Below, piece by piece: positions 3,464-26,608 of a stretch of 36,945 bases of DNA. Under the pieces are notes generated by a model. That model saw nothing but the letters and a program-made list of their open reading frames with translations, ran no database searches and was not told the DNA's origin. Every line of letters begins with the position of its first letter. Position 1 is the first letter of the stretch. The stretch is taken from assembly GCA_028279065.1 (NCBI GenBank), contig JANQSY010000093.1, forward strand, positions 1-36,945, written 5' to 3'. Source of the stretch: Cytophagales bacterium (GTDB taxonomy: Bacteria > Bacteroidota > Bacteroidia > Cytophagales > CCMP332). Position numbers and translations under genes: made by a program.

Positions 3464-6400
3464 ATGAGAAAACTGATCTTAATTATTGCCCTTTCTATGT
3501 TCCAATTTAATGCCTCATACGGTTCGAATGAGGATTACAAACTTGGATTCAGGGCCGCAAATCATACTCCGGAAACGACCCCTTCCATTGAGAAGGCAAT
3601 GATCTACTCCAAAGAAGAAGTTGTGAATGGGAAGGTTTTCAGGCTGGTTCAATTTTACGAGATCCCATCAGATCTGGAAAAGAAGGAAATGGAAGGTTTG
3701 GGGATCGAATTCATCTATTATCAACCCTCAAGAGCGTATTATTCTGCAATTCCAACAAACCTTGATCCCAAAACCCTTGAATCAAGAAACATCAGGTCGA
3801 TCCTACAGCTAAGGGGTGAATGGAAGATCAGCGAAAGGATCCTATCCGGAGAGATCCCGGATTTTGCAAAAGCAAACGGAAACAAATTCAACGTAACTAT
3901 CACTTATCCATCAAACTTAAGCTCAGAATATGTTGAGCAGGCCTTGGTGAAAATGGGTTTAGAGCCAAGAAAGCCATTTACTTTTGGCGAATCCTTTGAT
4001 CTGACAGTCAATTCCAAGGATCTGGAGGATCTACAAAATGCTGCATGGGTCTACTTTATTGATTATTGCGATGACCCTGGCCAGCCCGAGAACAACACCG
4101 CAAGAACATTACATAGAGCAAATTCCATTCATCCGGACTTTGGTGCCGGCAGGGAGTATGATGGGGAGGGAGTGGTCCTTCAGGTACAAGACAATAGCTC
4201 ACTCGCCGGGGCAGGTTCTCACATCGATTGGCAGGGAAGAACCAATACATCAAATTCAGCTTCACTGACATCTACCCATGGCGCGCACGTAACAGGAACT
4301 GTAATGGGAGCGGGCAATCTCAATCCCCTGGCAGAGGGAATGGCTAATGGAGCTTTCGTGTGGAAATATGGACCATCGAATAATAATTATTCTGCAGTCC
4401 CAAATCTCATCACAAATGAAGGCTTGGTTATCACCCAAAAGTCGTATAGTAATGGTTGTAATGCCGGATACACACAGTTAACAAGGGATCTGGATGTCAT
4501 GGTAAACAATTTCCCTGAACTTCTTCATGTGTTCTCTGCTGGAAATTCAAATGGCTTGAATTGCGGTTATGGCGGAGGAGGAGCAGGAACTCAATGGGGA
4601 AATGTAACGGGCGGACATAAGATCGCAAAGAATGCTATTGCAACCGCAAATGTCACCTCCACAGGTGCGATATCCGGCTCCTCGTCAAGAGGGCCAGCAT
4701 GGGATGGCCGGATAAAACCAGAGTTGTCTGCAAAAGGAACACAGGTATTTTCCACCTATCCGGGAAACGTTTATGCGACGATTTCAGGTACCTCAATGGC
4801 CTCTCCAGGAGTTGCAGGCGTTGCCGCCCAGCTTTACCAAGCCTTCAGAGAAAAGAATGGCGGTGCAAATCCACAAGGGGGATTGATCAAAGCTATACTG
4901 ATGAACACTGCAAATGACCTTGGAAATCCAGGTCCTGATTTCATTTTTGGATACGGGCATATCAATGGATACAGGTCTGTTGAGGTCATCGAAAACGACC
5001 AGTTTTTGGTGGACACCGCCTCCCAGGGCGACTCATTGGTTTATTCTTTAAGCGTACCTGCAAATGCTGAAAACCTAAGGGTTATGCTTTATTGGCCAGA
5101 TGTGGCTGGGGCGGTTAATGTAAATCCAAGTCTGGTCAATGATCTTGAGTTCATTCTTCTGGATCCCTCAAACACAGAATACGAACCCTGGGTGCTCGAT
5201 CACTCTCCAAATGCATCAAGCTTGAATTCACCGGCAACCAGAGGGGAAGACCACCTCAACAACATGGAGCAGGTGACTTTGGCTAACCCTCCTGCCGGAA
5301 ACTATACTCTTGTTGTAAAGGGTCACCAGGTCCCTTCAGGTCCACAGGAGTTCTATGTCACTCATTATATAGAGACCGATGATATCAAACTTACTTACCC
5401 AATAGGTCGTGAATCGATCGAGCCAGGGGAAAACATACTTGTGCGTTGGGATGCATATGGGAACTCCAGTACGTTTAGCCTGGAATACTCCCTTGATGGC
5501 GGATCAAATTGGAGCACCATTAGCTCAAGTATCCCTGCAGGTAGAAGATATTGGAGTTGGAACGTTCCTAACAACTCAAGCCATGATGCAATGGTGAGGA
5601 TAACAAGGGGATCAAAAACATCGGTTTCCGAGCTTCCATTTTACATCATGGAATCTCCAAATAATCTTAATGTAACTTCAAGGTGTCCTGATTCTCTTGA
5701 GCTTAGTTGGTCTACATCACCGACCGCAATTGGATATGTGGTCAGAGAACTTGGCACAAAATATATGGACTCTGTTGGCTACACTACCAATACATCATAT
5801 TGGTTTGACATCCCATCTTCCAACACTAGTGCATGGTTAACTGTAAATGCCACATCCATTGGTGATGTAAAAAGTAGAAGATCAATTGCTATTCAGACCA
5901 CCGGAGGAATTCAAAATTGTCCTGAATCACCAGTTGCGGACTTTTCAGCAAACACCGTCAATGTCTGTGTTGGAAAACCTGTTCAGTTCTATGATGAGTC
6001 CGTGAACGTCACGACATCCTGGTCATGGAGCGCCAACCCATCCACCATCCAATTTGTAGGAGGGACATCTTTCAGCTCCCAAAACCCGATCATTGAATTC
6101 ACTGCTCCAGGAACATACGACATTTCACTTCAGGCGAGCAATTCAAATGGAACGGGCTCAATAACCAAAAACAGTTATTTGTTTACCGTCACCGGAGATC
6201 CAATTCCATTGGATGAACAATTCTTCAGCACCAGTTTTCCACCGGTTAATTGGGAAGTCGATAACCCTGACGAAGACTATACCTGGTTAAGATCAGTTTC
6301 GGTGATCGGCTCCAATGGGGCGGCAACCAATGCAGCTTTCATAAATCATTTCAACAACAATTCTGCCAATAGAAGTGATTATCTATTGACCAAGGTCATG

Positions 6401-7006
6401 GATCTAAGCAATTTCCAAAACCCTCTGTTGCTATTTGATCTTTCAAATGCAGAGAGGATAACGGCAGTTGGCCCCTCACTGAAGGTCGAGGTATCAGTGG
6501 ACTGTGGCGCTACTTTCCAGGCCACGAGTTATGATAAGACCGGGGATGATCTCGCCACAGTTCCTTTTGGAAATGGTTCAAACATTTGGATACCTCTCAA
6601 TGCAGGACACTGGAGAACAGATACTGTCAGCCTTAAGCAATATATCGGCACGGAAGTTCAGGTTGGCTTCCACACTATTTCTGCAGTGGTTGGTAACAAT
6701 ATTTACTTGGATAATATTAGGGTGATCGAAGGTCCGGTTTCGGGATTGGAAGAGAACCTCTTCGAATCTTCAGTTTCTATCTTCCCAAATCCCGCAAAGG
6801 ATAATTTGACCATTTCATCGACCCAGGACTATCCTATCGATATGATCGAATTGGTTGATATAGTAGGAAAAACCAAAACCGATGTAGAATTTAGGAAAGA
6901 AGGTGAGGAATATCACCTTGATGTAAGCGGATTCTCCAAAGGGATCTATTTGGTACGACTAACCTCCAAGGATACGCGGATAACGAAAAAACTGGAAATT
7001 CAATAA
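3464..7006 (+). CDS. Secreted S8 (subtilisin-like) protease with PKD and T9SS sorting domain, copy 1
   Basis: Large (1180-residue) secreted serine endopeptidase. A signal peptide (residues 1-20) is followed by a propeptide-like region (~21-210), then the S8 domain with catalytic Asp243 (in VQDNS), His272 (STHGAHVTG) and Ser444 (SGTSMASPGVAG). Next come a convertase-type beta-sandwich (~510-640), an Ig-like module (~645-725), an Fn3-like module (~730-815), a PKD domain (~822-910), and an adhesin/MAM-like domain (~915-1095). A type A T9SS C-terminal domain (from ~1105, IFPNPAKDNL) ends the protein. The last domain predicts export through the type IX system and cell-surface anchoring or release. 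A close paralogue follows immediately, each gene with its own promoter and terminator. The substrate is unknown; nutrient scavenging is a reasonable inference. Confidence 0.95.
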   Translation: MRKLILIIALSMFQFNASYGSNEDYKLGFRAANHTPETTPSIEKAMIYSKEEVVNGKVFRLVQFYEIPSDLEKKEMEGLGIEFIYYQPSRAYYSAIPTNLDPKTLESRNIRSILQLRGEWKISERILSGEIPDFAKANGNKFNVTITYPSNLSSEYVEQALVKMGLEPRKPFTFGESFDLTVNSKDLEDLQNAAWVYFIDYCDDPGQPENNTARTLHRANSIHPDFGAGREYDGEGVVLQVQDNSSLAGAGSHIDWQGRTNTSNSASLTSTHGAHVTGTVMGAGNLNPLAEGMANGAFVWKYGPSNNNYSAVPNLITNEGLVITQKSYSNGCNAGYTQLTRDLDVMVNNFPELLHVFSAGNSNGLNCGYGGGGAGTQWGNVTGGHKIAKNAIATANVTSTGAISGSSSRGPAWDGRIKPELSAKGTQVFSTYPGNVYATISGTSMASPGVAGVAAQLYQAFREKNGGANPQGGLIKAILMNTANDLGNPGPDFIFGYGHINGYRSVEVIENDQFLVDTASQGDSLVYSLSVPANAENLRVMLYWPDVAGAVNVNPSLVNDLEFILLDPSNTEYEPWVLDHSPNASSLNSPATRGEDHLNNMEQVTLANPPAGNYTLVVKGHQVPSGPQEFYVTHYIETDDIKLTYPIGRESIEPGENILVRWDAYGNSSTFSLEYSLDGGSNWSTISSSIPAGRRYWSWNVPNNSSHDAMVRITRGSKTSVSELPFYIMESPNNLNVTSRCPDSLELSWSTSPTAIGYVVRELGTKYMDSVGYTTNTSYWFDIPSSNTSAWLTVNATSIGDVKSRRSIAIQTTGGIQNCPESPVADFSANTVNVCVGKPVQFYDESVNVTTSWSWSANPSTIQFVGGTSFSSQNPIIEFTAPGTYDISLQASNSNGTGSITKNSYLFTVTGDPIPLDEQFFSTSFPPVNWEVDNPDEDYTWLRSVSVIGSNGAATNAAFINHFNNNSANRSDYLLTKVMDLSNFQNPLLLFDLSNAERITAVGPSLKVEVSVDCGATFQATSYDKTGDDLATVPFGNGSNIWIPLNAGHWRTDTVSLKQYIGTEVQVGFHTISAVVGNNIYLDNIRVIEGPVSGLEENLFESSVSIFPNPAKDNLTISSTQDYPIDMIELVDIVGKTKTDVEFRKEGEEYHLDVSGFSKGIYLVRLTSKDTRITKKLEIQ

Positions 7007-7010
7007 ATCA

Positions 7011-7037
7011 AAAAAGGGGCTCCGGCCCCTTTTTTTG
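7011..7037 (+). terminator. Rho-independent terminator after protease gene 1
   Basis: Perfect stem GGGGC/GCCCC closed by a TCCG loop (a UNCG-class tetraloop on a C-G pair), preceded by an A-run and followed by a run of T. It starts 5 bases after the stop codon of the first protease. Confidence 0.93.
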
Positions 7038-7062
7038 TTTTTACTATTGAAATGTAGCTTTA
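7035..7062 (+). promoter_or_regulatory. Probable promoter of protease gene 2
   Basis: TTG at 7035-7037, a 17-base spacer and TAGCTTTA at 7055-7062 fit the flavobacterial TTG-N17-23-TANNTTTG consensus with one mismatch. The -33 element lies inside the T-tract of the upstream terminator. The ATG follows 20 bases after the -7 element. Confidence 0.55.
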
Positions 7063-7081
7063 CCCTACCAAAAATGTTAGT

Positions 7082-10000
7082 ATGAAATACACTCTTTTTC
7101 CGGCGATCTTTCTCTTATCCCTTTCCGGGTATTCCACAACTGATTTTAGACTTGGATTCCGTAATGCAGAGTTCCTCCCTACTGAGAATTTTTCAGATCC
7201 GACGGTTTTGTCCCATAGCCCCGATGAACTCATCGATGGAAAGTACTTCAGGATCGTTCAGTTCAATCAGATACCATCAGCTGAAATAAGAAAAGAAATT
7301 GAGGCCCTGGGTGTTGATTTCATTTTTTACCAACCTCGCAACGCATATTTCGTGGCTATTCCTGATGGGTTGAACTATACTCAGATAAGGGCTTATGACA
7401 TCCGAGCCATCTTACCTCTTCAAGGCAATTGGAAACTCAGCGAGCATCTGGTGGATCAACCAATCCCGGATCATGCCCTGAGAGCAAATGGAAAGTTTGA
7501 AGTAGTGGTTTCCTTTCCAGCTAATACTACCAAGGCGAGAGCAATATCTTATTTTACAGAGAAAGGGTATGAGATCTCAAATAGTGAAGAAGGGTTTGAA
7601 TCTGTCCATATGGTAGTAAATAGGGCTGAACTTCAGGATCTTTCCGACCTGCCTCTTACCTACTTCATTGATATGGTACCTGCCCCTGCTGAACCGGAAA
7701 ATGTTACTGCCCGCACTCTGCATCGTTCTAGCGCAATCAGCCCTGGAATTGGTGCAGGAAAGGAATATGATGGAACAGGGGTTGTTTTGCAAGTACAGGA
7801 CAATAGCTCTCTTACAGGAAATGGGGACCATATCGATTGGAGGGGAAGAAAGAATACCACCGCTTCCTCATCATTGACTTCGACTCATGGGGCCCATGTC
7901 ACGGGAACGGTAATGGGAGCAGGAAATCTCAATCCCCTTGCAGAAGGTATGGCAAAAGGTGCATTCGTCTACAAATATGGGCCTGCTCATGCAAGCTACC
8001 TTGCTGTACCGAATCTGGTGACCAACAATAATCTGGTCATGACCCAAAAATCATACAGCGATGGTTGCAATGGCGGCTACACTTCCAATGCAAGAGATAT
8101 GGATGTACTTGTGAACAATCATCCTGTATTGCTCCATGTTTTCTCTGCCGGGAATGCCGGAACCTCCAACTGTGGGTATGGTGCTGGCAGTGGATGGGGC
8201 AACGTCACAGGAGGGCATAAGATCGGAAAGAATACCATTGCTACGGCCAATGTCACTTCAACTGGTCAGATCTCAGGATCTTCTTCAAGGGGCCCCGCAT
8301 GGGATGGAAGGATAAAACCAGACCTTTCTGCAAAAGGAACAAATGTGTTTTCGACCTATCCCAATAACACCTATGCCTCCATATCAGGAACATCAATGGC
8401 TTCACCCGGAGTTGCAGGAACCGCTGCCCAACTCTATGAAGCCTACCGTGAAAACTATAATCAGGTGACACCACAGGGAGGCCTTATAAAGTCCGTTTTA
8501 ATGAATACGGCAAACGATCTTGGGAACCCAGGGCCGGATTTCATTTATGGTTGGGGGCATATCAATGGATATAGAGCTGTAGAGGTGATTGAGAACGGCC
8601 AATTCCTTATAGACACTATCGGCCAAGGAGATTCCCTGGTTTATTCCCTTACTGTCCCTTTCAGTGCAACTAAGGTTAGGGTTATGCTTTATTGGCCTGA
8701 TGTGGCCGGAGCCGTCATGGCGAACCCTTCCCTGGTCAACGACCTTGAATTCAGGGTTTATGATGCCTCAAACAATGAAACTAAGCCCTGGGTGCTTGAT
8801 CATACTCCCAATGCATCCAATCTCGCAGCACCAGCTCAACGAGGTGAGGATCATCTCAACAATATGGAGCAGGTTACAATTAATAACCCTAGCCCTGGGA
8901 CTTATTCTCTGGTAGTAAAAGGTCATTCAGTCCCAATGGGTCCTCAAGAGTTCTTCATTACGCATTTCTTTGAAACCAACGAAGTTAAACTGACCCACCC
9001 GATCGGGGGTGAATCCCTGGATCCGGGAGAGAACACCATCATCCATTGGGATGCCTATGGAAACACTGGCACTTTCGATATTGAGTACTCTGCAGATAGT
9101 GGGGCAAACTGGACTACCATAAATTCGAATGTCGCCGCGGGTACAAGATTGCTTTCTTGGAATGTTCCGGGGGCAGCAAGCCCCCATGCAATGGTAAGGG
9201 TTTCCAGGGGGTTTAGCACCAGTATAAGTGAAAAGCCCTTTTACATAATGGATAGACCAGGGAATGTGAATTTTCTTTCAGTATGTCCAGATTCCGCGGT
9301 TTTATCCTGGAATCACAGCCCAAATGCGGTTGGATATGTGATCCGCCAGTTAGGGGCGGAGTATATGGATTCAATCGGCTTTACCTCCAATAATTTTGCC
9401 TGGGTACAAGTCCCTTCAGGTGCAACTGACGAGTGGTTTTCGGTAAATGCAGTTGGACTTGGTAAGGTCCGGAGCCGCAGGACAATCGCAATCGAAAAGC
9501 CAACCAATACCTTCAACTGTCCTCCAATTCCCGTAGCGGATTTTACAGCCGTCACGGATAACATCTGTGTCGGCAAGACTGTGCTAGTAGAAGATAAGTC
9601 AACTAATGTTCCTTCGGCATGGCAATGGACAATCACACCCGGAACCCATACCTATGTGAACGGAACCTCATCTTCTTCCCAACACCCTGAAGTACAATTC
9701 ACTTCTCCGGGAAGTTATTCGGTAAGTCTAACCGCATCAAATGGCTTTGGAAATGATTCGAAAACCGAAAGCGATTATATCATCACAGCGATCGGGGATA
9801 CCACAAGGTTGGATGAGACCTTCCCTTTCTCCTCTTCTTTTCCTCCTGATCGTTGGGAGGTATATAATCCAGATAATGACTGGGGCTGGCAGAAATCCCC
9901 ATCATATATCGGAAGCCAGGGAAGTGTCGATTATGGATCTTCTATCAATCATTTCAATATCAGTGGGGCCGGAAAAGAAGACCGGATGCTCCCATACCTG

Positions 10001-10609
10001 ATGGATCTTACCGGCTTTCAACAACCACTGTTGTTGTTCGATATGGCCTATGCACAAATAAATGCTGTTTTGAACCCCACTCTTTATGTTGAGGTTTCAA
10101 CGGATTGTGGCAATACCTTCCAGGCAACCGGCTACCAAAAAACCGATGATGATCTTGCTACGGTTCCTTTTGGAACAGCAGGTGGATATTGGACACCTAC
10201 CAATGCAGCTCATTGGAGGACCGATACCATAGATATTACTCAATGGATAGGAAATGAGGTTCAGATCGACTTCAAAACCATTTCAGATATTGAGGGGAAT
10301 GCTCTTTATCTGGATAACATTAGGATCATCGAAGGCAGCGTTACAGGTCTGGAAAGTTCGGAACTAGCTTCCAAAGTCCTGGTCTATCCCAATCCTGCAA
10401 AGGATAGGATCAATTTGGAGTTCAATGGGCAGCAGATAGTCAGAATCGAAGTTTCAGATGTTTCAGGAAAAAAGCTGAAGACTTTTGGATCCTTGAAAGG
10501 GAAGGAAAAACTATCTGTTGATGTAACATCACTAGAAAGTGGGATCTATATGCTTCGACTGGTGGCTGTGGATGGTCAGACCGGCACCAAAAAGATCCAC
10601 ATTGAATAG
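7082..10609 (+). CDS. Secreted S8 (subtilisin-like) protease with PKD and T9SS sorting domain, copy 2
   Basis: Paralogue of the protease just upstream, with the same domain order and nearly the same length (1175 residues). It has a signal peptide, a propeptide-like region, then an S8 domain with Asp240, His269 and Ser438 (SGTSMASPGVAG). These are followed by a convertase-type beta-sandwich, Ig-like, Fn3-like, PKD and adhesin/MAM-like modules and a type A T9SS C-terminal domain (from ~1100, VYPNPAKDRI). The catalytic core is very similar to copy 1, while the N-terminal 200 residues and the C-terminal sorting domain differ more. The triad is complete, so both copies should be active. It has its own promoter and a strong terminator, so it is not obligately co-transcribed with copy 1. 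A tandem duplication is the simplest origin. Confidence 0.95.
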   Translation: MKYTLFPAIFLLSLSGYSTTDFRLGFRNAEFLPTENFSDPTVLSHSPDELIDGKYFRIVQFNQIPSAEIRKEIEALGVDFIFYQPRNAYFVAIPDGLNYTQIRAYDIRAILPLQGNWKLSEHLVDQPIPDHALRANGKFEVVVSFPANTTKARAISYFTEKGYEISNSEEGFESVHMVVNRAELQDLSDLPLTYFIDMVPAPAEPENVTARTLHRSSAISPGIGAGKEYDGTGVVLQVQDNSSLTGNGDHIDWRGRKNTTASSSLTSTHGAHVTGTVMGAGNLNPLAEGMAKGAFVYKYGPAHASYLAVPNLVTNNNLVMTQKSYSDGCNGGYTSNARDMDVLVNNHPVLLHVFSAGNAGTSNCGYGAGSGWGNVTGGHKIGKNTIATANVTSTGQISGSSSRGPAWDGRIKPDLSAKGTNVFSTYPNNTYASISGTSMASPGVAGTAAQLYEAYRENYNQVTPQGGLIKSVLMNTANDLGNPGPDFIYGWGHINGYRAVEVIENGQFLIDTIGQGDSLVYSLTVPFSATKVRVMLYWPDVAGAVMANPSLVNDLEFRVYDASNNETKPWVLDHTPNASNLAAPAQRGEDHLNNMEQVTINNPSPGTYSLVVKGHSVPMGPQEFFITHFFETNEVKLTHPIGGESLDPGENTIIHWDAYGNTGTFDIEYSADSGANWTTINSNVAAGTRLLSWNVPGAASPHAMVRVSRGFSTSISEKPFYIMDRPGNVNFLSVCPDSAVLSWNHSPNAVGYVIRQLGAEYMDSIGFTSNNFAWVQVPSGATDEWFSVNAVGLGKVRSRRTIAIEKPTNTFNCPPIPVADFTAVTDNICVGKTVLVEDKSTNVPSAWQWTITPGTHTYVNGTSSSSQHPEVQFTSPGSYSVSLTASNGFGNDSKTESDYIITAIGDTTRLDETFPFSSSFPPDRWEVYNPDNDWGWQKSPSYIGSQGSVDYGSSINHFNISGAGKEDRMLPYLMDLTGFQQPLLLFDMAYAQINAVLNPTLYVEVSTDCGNTFQATGYQKTDDDLATVPFGTAGGYWTPTNAAHWRTDTIDITQWIGNEVQIDFKTISDIEGNALYLDNIRIIEGSVTGLESSELASKVLVYPNPAKDRINLEFNGQQIVRIEVSDVSGKKLKTFGSLKGKEKLSVDVTSLESGIYMLRLVAVDGQTGTKKIHIE

Positions 10610-21203: not shown

Positions 21204-21223
21204 CACCTCAATTTTTGAGAACG

Positions 21224-21577
21224 ATGAGTGAGTTGATCAAATATGTGGAAGAGGCGGTAAATGAAAATACCGCAAACCTCCCTGATTTTGAAGCAGGTGA
21301 TACTATCAATGTGCACCTAAAGATCAGGGAAGGAAACAAGGAAAGGATCCAGCAGTTCAAGGGTGCGGTTATCCAAAGGAAAAATCGCGGAACCAATGGC
21401 GAGACCTTTACCGTAAGAAAGCTTTCCGGAGGAATAGGCGTTGAGAGGATCATACCAATTCATTCCCCTTCAATAGATAAAATAGAGGTTCTTCAAAAAG
21501 GCAAGGTCCGCCGAGCCAGGATCTACTACCTGAGAGGCCGGGCAGGAAAGTCCGCCAAGATCAAGGAAAAGAAATAA
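21224..21577 (+). CDS. rplS: 50S ribosomal protein L19
   Basis: Ribosomal protein bL19 at the 30S-50S interface. Diagnostic segments: [49 protein letters not shown] and the basic C-terminal [20 protein letters not shown]. The ATG at 21224 ([10 protein letters not shown]) is chosen over an in-frame TTG at 21215, which lies too close to the -7 element. It closes the rpsP-rimM-trmD-rplS cluster found across bacteria and is followed by a strong terminator. Confidence 0.97.
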
Positions 21578-24683: not shown

Positions 24684-25193
24684 ATGAAAAAACTTTCAAA
24701 TTTTGCAGTCCTCCTTGTCCTACTTTTCATGGTAGCATGCGGAGGCCAGGAATCCTCTGAATCTGAGGAAATGGTGGAGATCGAGGAAGTACAGGAATCT
24801 GATGTCAGCGAAGAGAGCGGCGAGGATGAACTATATGGGGCAGGGCAGGAGATCACTGAGGATATGAGGGTCTTCTTTGTAAACCTGAATGATGGTGATG
24901 TGGTGAATTCTCCCTTTGTGGTGGAAATGGGCGTTGAAGGGATGGAAGTAGAACCCGCTGGAGCCCTTGCCAAAAGCAAGGGGCACCATCATATTTTGAT
25001 CAATAGGGCCGCATACCCCACAGGAGAGGTGGTTCCAATGGATGAGAACAATATTCACTTTGGAGATGGTAGTACACAAACCACTCTGGAACTGGAGCCT
25101 GGAGAATATAGTCTAACACTCCAATTTGCAGATGGGCTTCATCAAAGCTATGGTGAACCCATGAGCGCAACCATCACTATTTCAGTGCAATAA
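24684..25193 (+). CDS. DUF4399 lipoprotein
   Basis: A 169-residue lipoprotein (lipobox MVAC, cysteine at about residue 19). A very acidic Glu/Ser-rich linker (~20-55) precedes a DUF4399 domain (~60-169) with its characteristic VFFVNLNDGDVVNSPF, KGHHHILI, NNIHFGDGSTQTTLEL and LQFADGLHQSYG segments. The clustered histidines (GHHH and IHFG) could bind metal, but the family function is unknown. The 3' end overlaps the convergent dapF-like gene by 12 bases. The acidic linker is likely a flexible spacer from the membrane. Confidence 0.88.
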   Translation: MKKLSNFAVLLVLLFMVACGGQESSESEEMVEIEEVQESDVSEESGEDELYGAGQEITEDMRVFFVNLNDGDVVNSPFVVEMGVEGMEVEPAGALAKSKGHHHILINRAAYPTGEVVPMDENNIHFGDGSTQTTLELEPGEYSLTLQFADGLHQSYGEPMSATITISVQ

Positions 25194-26027
25194 GAATTCT
25201 GAGGAGAGGGTCCCGGTGAATATATGGTTTACCGGCCCTCTTAACCAGATCTCATCCTCCAGGATGGAGATCTTGATGCTGCCCCCTTCCATGTTCACAT
25301 TCACTTCCTGATCGACAAGATCAAGTGAATAAAAGGCAAATGCTGCAGCTGAAGAGCTAGAGCCAGATGAAAGCGTGAGTCCCGCTCCCCTTTCCCATAT
25401 CTTCATTTCAATATTTTTCCTGTCCACCACCCTTGCAAACTGGACGTTGATTCGGTTTGGAAAGGATGGGTAGTTCTCGATCACTGGCCCGTGTTTTTTG
25501 ACAAACTCATCAGAAGGCAGTTGATCAAGATGCAAAACACAATGAGGATTTCCCACAGAAAGGCATATTGCCGAAAAGGTTTCGCCGTTTACTTCAAAAC
25601 TCTTCTGAACCCATGGCTCAAGATCATTCAAGGGAATGTCTGAGGGCTCAAAACTCGCCTTACCCATTTTCACAGAAAGACTTCCGTCCTTTTCATCTCT
25701 GATCAGGCAATCCCCGCCTTGGGTTTTAACCAAAGCTTCCTGACCGTCCCAAAGCCCATGGTCCAACAAATACCGGGCAAATATCCGAACCCCATTTCCA
25801 CTTCTTTCTGCTTCTCCCCCATCCGGGTTGAATACCCGAACCCCTGGATCGTCAGATCCATCCTCTTGGTGAAGAAGAATTCCGTCGGAACCAACTCCCC
25901 TTTGCTCAGAGCAGATCTTTTTGATCAGATCTGGGGTTGCGTCAAACCAGGTTTGCTTTGCGGGAATTACCAAATAATCATTTCCGCAAGCTTCGTATTT
26001 ATGGAAGATTGCTTCCTTTGCCAGCAT
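25182..26027 (-). CDS. Diaminopimelate epimerase-like (DapF) protein lacking both catalytic cysteines
   Basis: DapF-fold protein of 281 residues. The family framework is clear: YEACGNDYLVI (~11-21), RGVGSDGIL, NPDGGEAERSGNGVRIFARY, SVGNPHCVLHL, FPNRINVQFA and WERGAGLTLSSGSSSSAAA. True DapF interconverts LL- and meso-diaminopimelate for lysine and peptidoglycan using two cysteines, found in CGNG and in ACGTG. Here both are serine: Ser76 (in SGNG) and Ser221 (in SSGS), although the surrounding loops are kept. It may be a divergent epimerase, a racemase on another substrate, or a non-catalytic relative. I recall similar SGNG/SGSS sequences annotated as DapF in other phyla, so this is probably a subfamily rather than a point mutation. 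Start ATG 26027 is divergent from the DUF2911 gene. Confidence 0.85.
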   Translation of the reverse strand: MLAKEAIFHKYEACGNDYLVIPAKQTWFDATPDLIKKICSEQRGVGSDGILLHQEDGSDDPGVRVFNPDGGEAERSGNGVRIFARYLLDHGLWDGQEALVKTQGGDCLIRDEKDGSLSVKMGKASFEPSDIPLNDLEPWVQKSFEVNGETFSAICLSVGNPHCVLHLDQLPSDEFVKKHGPVIENYPSFPNRINVQFARVVDRKNIEMKIWERGAGLTLSSGSSSSAAAFAFYSLDLVDQEVNVNMEGGSIKISILEDEIWLRGPVNHIFTGTLSSEFLLH

Positions 26028-26053: not shown

Positions 26054-26608
26054 ATGAAAAAAGTCTTAATCCTTCTGGGTATCGCAGCGGTATTGGTCGT
26101 GGGCTATGGGGCTTTGTATTTTTTTTATTTGACACGACTGGCCAGCCCTCAGGAAACCGTTTCACTTAATGACGGTGAATTGTCAATTTCCGTCACTTAT
26201 TGCAGGCCGTCAAAGAATGGACGCTTGATCTTTGGTGAGGAATCCGAAGGGGCGCTTCAACCTTGGGGCAAATATTGGCGCCTGGGGGCAAATCAGGCAA
26301 CAGAGATCGAATTCAATAAGCCTGTAAGCTTTGCAGGGCAAAGGATCGAGGCCGGAAGATACCGGCTGTATGCTATTCCCGGAAAACAAACCTGGGAGAT
26401 CGTTTTCAACTCGGAATTGGGAGAATGGGGATATGACCCAGCCGATCGTGAGCTTGATGTTCTTTCATTGAAGATCGCCCAGGAATCTATGAATGAGCTT
26501 GTGGAGATGTTTACGATAACAATTCTATCTTCGGACGACTTGAATAAATATACCTTGAACTTGTTTTGGGATCAGACCCTGATCCGGATACCCTTCAGCT
26601 ATGAGTGA
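26054..26608 (+). CDS. DUF2911 family membrane-anchored protein
   Basis: A 184-residue protein with an N-terminal membrane anchor or signal peptide (~4-26) and a DUF2911 domain (~35-184). The domain signature is visible: SVTYCRPSKNGRLIFG, PWGKYWRLGANQATEIEF, AGRYRLYAIPGKQTWEIVF, and a C-terminal LNLFWDQTLIRIPF. The family is frequent in Bacteroidota and of unknown function; the domain appears to be an exported beta-sandwich. Its last eight bases overlap the start of the DEAD-box helicase gene, suggesting translational coupling. It is divergent from the dapF-like gene with only 26 bases between the two starts. Confidence 0.88.
   Translation: MKKVLILLGIAAVLVVGYGALYFFYLTRLASPQETVSLNDGELSISVTYCRPSKNGRLIFGEESEGALQPWGKYWRLGANQATEIEFNKPVSFAGQRIEAGRYRLYAIPGKQTWEIVFNSELGEWGYDPADRELDVLSLKIAQESMNELVEMFTITILSSDDLNKYTLNLFWDQTLIRIPFSYE

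Follow-up and report, generated by a model that had tools for sequence, protein, structure and literature searches.

Can a diaminopimelate (DAP) epimerase do its work without thiols? The alpha proton of an amino acid has a pKa near 29, and its removal by a weak thiolate has long posed a question in the study of cofactor-independent racemases, where the cysteine pair is treated as a defining part of the answer. In the case of DapF the product is meso-DAP, which is needed for lysine and usually also for the cell wall. The locus studied here, part of a stretch of 36,945 nucleotides from a member of the Cytophagales (the whole stretch is called the window in the following), encodes a DapF with serine at both catalytic positions. 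We consider it rather likely that this protein is the organism's working DAP epimerase, with Ser76 and Ser221 replacing the two cysteine acid/base catalysts. A thiol-free version of DapF chemistry thus probably exists in nature.

A DapF homologue with serine at both catalytic positions

The gene, its neighbours and the positions of interest are the following.

24684..25193, + strand: DUF4399 lipoprotein-like gene, convergent neighbour of dapF (Pfam)
25182..26027, - strand: dapF, encoding a Ser/Ser DapF of 281 aa; ATG start, stop codon 25182-25184 (ORF and family profiles)
25356..25364, - strand: Gly222-Ser223-Ser224; Ser224 stands in place of a Gly that is invariant in ERGAG-type Cys/Cys relatives
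25365..25367, - strand: Ser221 codon TCT, second catalytic Cys position (H. influenzae Cys217), before predicted helix 222-234
25800..25802, - strand: Ser76 codon AGT, first catalytic Cys position (H. influenzae Cys73), before predicted helix 77-89
26054..26608, + strand: DUF2911 gene, divergent neighbour of dapF (Pfam)

An earlier note on this DNA had described the product of 25182-26027 (-) as DapF-like with both catalytic cysteines replaced by serine, and both statements are borne out. The protein is a full-length family member, scoring 209.9 bits against the NCBIfam DapF model TIGR00652 (cut-off 114.65) and 170.8 against the Pfam model DAP_epimerase PF01678 (cut-off 34.7), which is its sole Pfam match. 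Residue-by-residue alignment to solved DapFs places serine at both positions: Ser76, where the SGNG motif begins, lies in the first catalytic loop, EAERSGNGVRIF, and Ser221 in the second, GLTLSSGSSSSAAA, within the run S220-S221-G222-S223-S224. The protein consequently lacks the two catalytic cysteines that serve DapF as a thiol/thiolate pair. Among the comparison DapFs outside the Ser/Ser clade, the alignment has Cys at both positions in 37/37. Compared with the DapF of TIGR00652/PF01678, the window protein has the same length, the same substrate contacts and, as inferred, the same place in the lysine pathway, but differs in both catalytic cysteines.

The best PDB matches include 2q9h (C73S) and 2q9j (C217S), two laboratory mutants of H. 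influenzae DapF. They have the same fold and serine at the matching sites; however, each is engineered and has one Cys left, whereas both serines of the window protein are natural and conserved.

The change is not confined to the two catalysts. Further clade-specific positions are Gln196, which replaces Glu, and Ile82, six residues past the first catalytic site, where all ERGAG-type Cys/Cys DapFs compared have Cys. Ser224 is present in 5/5 Bacteroidota Ser/Ser sequences, and the second helix of these members begins with Ser224 and Ser225. A rescuing Cys elsewhere in the site was not found, and the eight Ser/Ser sequences have no Cys position in common. Nor does a new conserved acid, base or Cys appear among them.

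Occurrence and descent of the Ser/Ser pair

The Ser/Ser pair was found in eight sequences, i.e. in five Bacteroidota genomes, two plasmids and one IMG/VR contig. The searches covered 390 genomes of the order and 395 genomes of the phylum. Only five genomes stand out there as Ser/Ser: the window's own genome (G000; 3.59 Mb, 97.1% complete, 191 contigs), G001 (58% identity to the window protein), G002 (44%; a single contig of 3,325,829 bp), G054 (43%; from a different family of the same order) and G464 (from a different class of the phylum). All other DapFs whose loops were read, mainly those of top-scoring genomes, are Cys/Cys. Outside the Bacteroidota, plasmid and viral collections were sampled, and the Ser/Ser sequences from there come from plasmids of Agrobacterium vitis (L119) and Streptomyces sp. 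NBC_01216 (L120) and from the IMG/VR contig (L138:2923-3765; 3300035326_000440). This contig is classed as viral and also encodes a recombinase-like protein; we regard it as either mobile DNA or host DNA that was mis-assigned.

In a tree of 52 DapFs, a branch with 100/99 support separates seven Ser/Ser sequences from the rest, and the support is again 100/99 when the eighth is added. Across the eight sequences the first serine is always encoded by AGY and the second always by TCN, as expected if each change arose once. The pairs G000/G001 and G054/G464 show dN values of 0.36 and 0.26, with synonymous sites saturated, and the motif is kept despite a divergence from 58% to about 35% identity. 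The earlier proposal of a coherent subfamily rather than decay is hence well supported by this monophyly and by the DAP-binding residues, which are intact in 6/6 of the Bacteroidota and IMG/VR sequences. Its statement that such sequences are filed as ordinary DapF was also correct, since they score above the TIGR00652 cut-off and the plasmid copies are annotated as dapF. A natural Ser/Ser DapF was not found in the literature searched, a search that falls short of most subscription journals.

A mixed case is seen in another IMG/VR sequence (L139:2971-3801; 3300022687_000030), which combines a first-site Cys (CGNA) with a second-site Ser (LASGSSSCA). It branches outside the Ser/Ser clade as sister to a Cys/Cys sequence, and its position suggests a second, independent partial replacement.

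Fold and substrate binding site

The AlphaFold2 model of the window protein (pLDDT 86.9, pTM 0.86) has the DapF fold over the whole chain. Its top structural match is 9mro_A, the Anabaena DapF with a DAP analogue (Z 37.7, 1.9 A, 270 residues), and the fold is common to the solved DapFs of Anabaena (9mro), H. influenzae (1gqz) and C. glutamicum (5m47), with Z between 33 and 38. Ser76 and Ser221 each immediately precede a helix in the predicted structure (77-89 and 222-234), and it is at these helix starts that the catalytic cysteines of solved DapFs sit (PMC12039745).

The list of DAP contacts was taken from the Anabaena DapF with its DAP analogue (PMC12039745). All of them are retained in the window protein, namely N16, N67, G77, N78, N160, N194, E212, R213, G222 and S223. 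For C. glutamicum DapF it was reported that Ala at N15, N74, N85, N159, N194, E212, R213 or T223 nearly abolishes activity, and that Ala at either catalytic Cys likewise does so (PMC5296763); the match of those eight residues to the window protein is a mapping made in the present analysis. The retained contacts suggest that selection kept the binding site and altered only the catalysts and a few surrounding residues. Asn160 is missing from both plasmid copies, which have Thr or Val. This loss alone proves nothing, since ordinary Bacteroidota Cys/Cys DapFs also have Ser, Thr or Ala at this position.

Lysine pathway genes in the Ser/Ser genomes

The pathway search covered DapF, DAP dehydrogenase (Ddh) and LysA, and in the own genome also DapB, DapD and DapL. 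The own genome contains one DapF-family gene, the Ser/Ser one, and a second, canonical DapF is not present. G001, G002, G054 and G464 have exactly one TIGR00652 match each, always Ser/Ser. G006, a congener of G054, also has exactly one DapF, which is Cys/Cys (L012). The comparison of these two looks like the replacement of a Cys enzyme by a Ser enzyme inside one genus.

A bypass by DAP dehydrogenase was considered and rejected, as no Ddh was detected in the five Ser/Ser genomes: TIGR01921 gave zero matches in G000-G002, and PF16654 gave zero matches in G001, G002, G054, G464 and G006, with the positive controls Bacteroides ihuae and C. glutamicum both matching. LysA, on the other hand, is found above cut-off in 5/5 Ser/Ser genomes. 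In G464 there are two LysA genes above cut-off (C15:323215-324459 and C9:225445-226644).

In the own genome, DapB (131.8, cut-off 122) and DapD (NF008808; 341.8, cut-off 204) are present. With the DapL model TIGR03542, only general aminotransferases below the cut-off were obtained there. Presence of DapD, with DapL lacking an above-cut-off match, indicates that the organism presumably uses the succinylase route. Both the DapD and the DapL route yield LL-DAP, and the described step from there to the meso form is DapF (PMC4176475). In G464, an LL-DAP aminotransferase gene (NF004937; 671.1, cut-off 585) follows 97 bp past the Ser/Ser dapF on the same strand. The same order is seen in Monoglobus, in which a Cys/Cys dapF is followed by an annotated LL-DAP aminotransferase.

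Taken together, the sole copy, the missing Ddh, the presence of LysA and the neighbour in G464 argue for DAP epimerisation by the Ser/Ser protein. The earlier note had favoured an altered chemistry or substrate and had named a sole epimerase for lysine and peptidoglycan synthesis as the finding contrary to this. On genome content, that is the situation in 5/5 genomes, and a changed substrate is accordingly disfavoured for the Bacteroidota members. Being the sole DapF is not proof of activity, because E. coli dapF mutants are on record (Richaud 1987, as cited in PMC6254735). Some of the genomes are also incomplete.

As a side observation, several Bacteroidota genomes of at least 99% completeness (G610, G487, G498, G521 and others) gave no DapF when searched with the Ser/Ser profile. 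These organisms may rely on DAP dehydrogenase instead, or on a diamino acid other than DAP.

Possible action on another substrate

The alternative that survives best, though we hold it to be unlikely, is a different substrate amino acid or a different reaction for the Ser/Ser protein (as racemase, isomerase or dehydratase), with meso-DAP supplied by a non-homologous enzyme that went unrecognised or by a racemase of broad specificity. No change known for the DapF active site is more drastic than the loss of both thiols, and DapF-like proteins have been reassigned before, e.g., to histidine racemase (PMC11602996) and 2,4-diaminobutyrate racemase (PMC8225329). These proteins, HisR/CntK and PddB, have a DapF-like fold and were once annotated as or grouped with DapF, but they have retained the Cys/Cys pair and their substrates are other amino acids. 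The window protein does not belong to HisR/CntK: it is Ser/Ser, and CntK and HisR match it at 15-18% identity, far below the DapFs.

The alternative draws further support from the two plasmid members (L119: NZ_AP023281.1, 318273-325094, A. vitis; L120: NZ_CP108679.1, 24894-31769, Streptomyces). Both lack Asn160, and both have the gene order iron-containing redox enzyme, 2OG-Fe dioxygenase, Ser/Ser dapF, molybdopterin-dependent oxidoreductase and aldo/keto reductase. With its iron- and molybdenum-dependent oxidoreductase genes, this common cluster resembles an uncharacterised pathway for the modification of amino acids, and the plasmid copies may act on other substrates. A changed substrate is therefore more credible for them than for the Bacteroidota members. 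The latter keep every DAP contact, including Asn160 and Arg213, which contacts the distal carboxylate. They are moreover the sole DapF in five genomes with LysA and without Ddh, one copy lies beside the LL-DAP aminotransferase gene, and the alternative requires a further, undiscovered epimerase in at least three families.

A proposed thiol-free mechanism

Given that the window protein is a DAP epimerase, the reaction could proceed as follows. LL-DAP would be bound as in any DapF, so that Ser76 and Ser221 flank the alpha carbon. In a closed site that is poor in water, one serine, placed where a helix has its positive end, would become an alkoxide-like base and take the alpha proton; the other would donate a proton from the opposite face. 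The resulting meso-DAP would pass to LysA and presumably also to MurE. The serine pair would be aided by the helix ends, by desolvation as the site closes and by the protonated amine of the substrate. We give about even chances to this full proposal, i.e. a thiol-free DAP epimerase in which the serine pair itself does the 1,1-proton transfer at rates supporting lysine and cell wall, and which has displaced the Cys enzyme in several Bacteroidota.

Serine as a proton carrier is supported by precedent in the wider proline racemase superfamily, where catalytic serines are known (PMC4113996). The Ser/Cys 4-hydroxyproline epimerase B9JQV3 has epimerase activity with a catalytic Ser, and the 3-hydroxyproline dehydratase B9K4G4 has a natural Ser/Thr pair (PMC4113996). 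Both share with the window protein the superfamily fold, the natural loss of the Cys pair and Ser at a catalytic position, but they have only about 12-15% identity to it, differ in substrate and have Cys or Thr at the second position, where the window protein has Ser. By sequence the window protein is not a member of the proline racemase/hydroxyproline epimerase family, its structural matches there being at 10-16% identity. No Ser/Ser epimerase of this superfamily is described in the literature searched.

Mutant data and acidity count against a Ser-based DAP epimerase. Cys-to-Ser mutants of PddB keep less than 0.1% activity, the same value is cited in PMC8225329 for M. tuberculosis DapF, and an alcohol has a pKa some 6 units higher than a thiol (PMC8225329). 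HisR mutants are also greatly reduced (PMC11602996). An engineered Ser in a thiol-tuned site is, however, a different case from a site evolved for Ser.

The same pKa argument (PMC8225329) favours a variant in which the protein is a DAP epimerase, but bound water or hydroxide or another side chain carries the proton and the serines only position it. The clade-specific Ile82 (for Cys), Gln196 (for Glu) and, in Bacteroidota, Ser224 (for Gly) could be read in this way. Moreover, DapFs whose residue at the Gln44 position is Gly show waters in the active site (PMC12039745), and the window protein has Gly49 near this position. Nevertheless, we judge this variant quite improbable, as DapFs close on the substrate and expel water (PMC12039745) and the eight Ser/Ser sequences have no new acid, base or Cys in common. 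That the protein is a non-functional remnant or a sequencing artefact, as the absence of both catalytic residues of a textbook enzyme might indicate, is scarcely credible in view of full-length frames, intact binding residues and a motif held while identity falls from 58% to about 35%. The artefact is ruled out, as eight sequences from separate records carry this double change.

With the serine pair as the preferred catalyst, a reason for the change may be sought in oxidation. C. glutamicum DapF is redox-sensitive and was solved in oxidised and reduced conditions (PMC5296763). As a serine pair cannot form a disulfide, resistance to oxidation may have been selected for.

Implications

If true, a two-alcohol enzyme with an otherwise unchanged site would make it possible to test directly the contribution of the thiols against those of desolvation, helix ends and the substrate zwitterion. 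Neither oxidation nor thiol reagents would affect such an epimerase, and aziridino-DAP inhibitors probably would not either. For drug design this means that inhibitors which alkylate the DapF cysteines may miss Ser/Ser enzymes. For annotation it is relevant that databases label the Ser/Ser proteins as ordinary DapF.

Genomic neighbourhood

DUF4399 and DUF2911 genes flank the Ser/Ser dapF in G000, G001 and G002, which form one family; the assignment was made by Pfam in the window, and the matching ORFs of G001 and G002 come from the reading of these genomes. With constant neighbours, the gene appears to have been inherited in place within this family. Lysine-pathway genes were not found around dapF in the window, and no DAP gene adjoins it in the own genome.

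In many genomes of the order, including G006 (L133:8516-9770), an ordinary Cys/Cys dapF adjoins rplS. In the window, the distance from rplS (21215-21574) to the Ser/Ser dapF is about 3.6 kb, and rplS may mark the site of a former dapF. At 3464-10606 the window encodes two neighbouring subtilases, both long (about 1,180 aa) and secreted, which carry PKD and Por secretion sorting domains and seem to stem from a tandem duplication.
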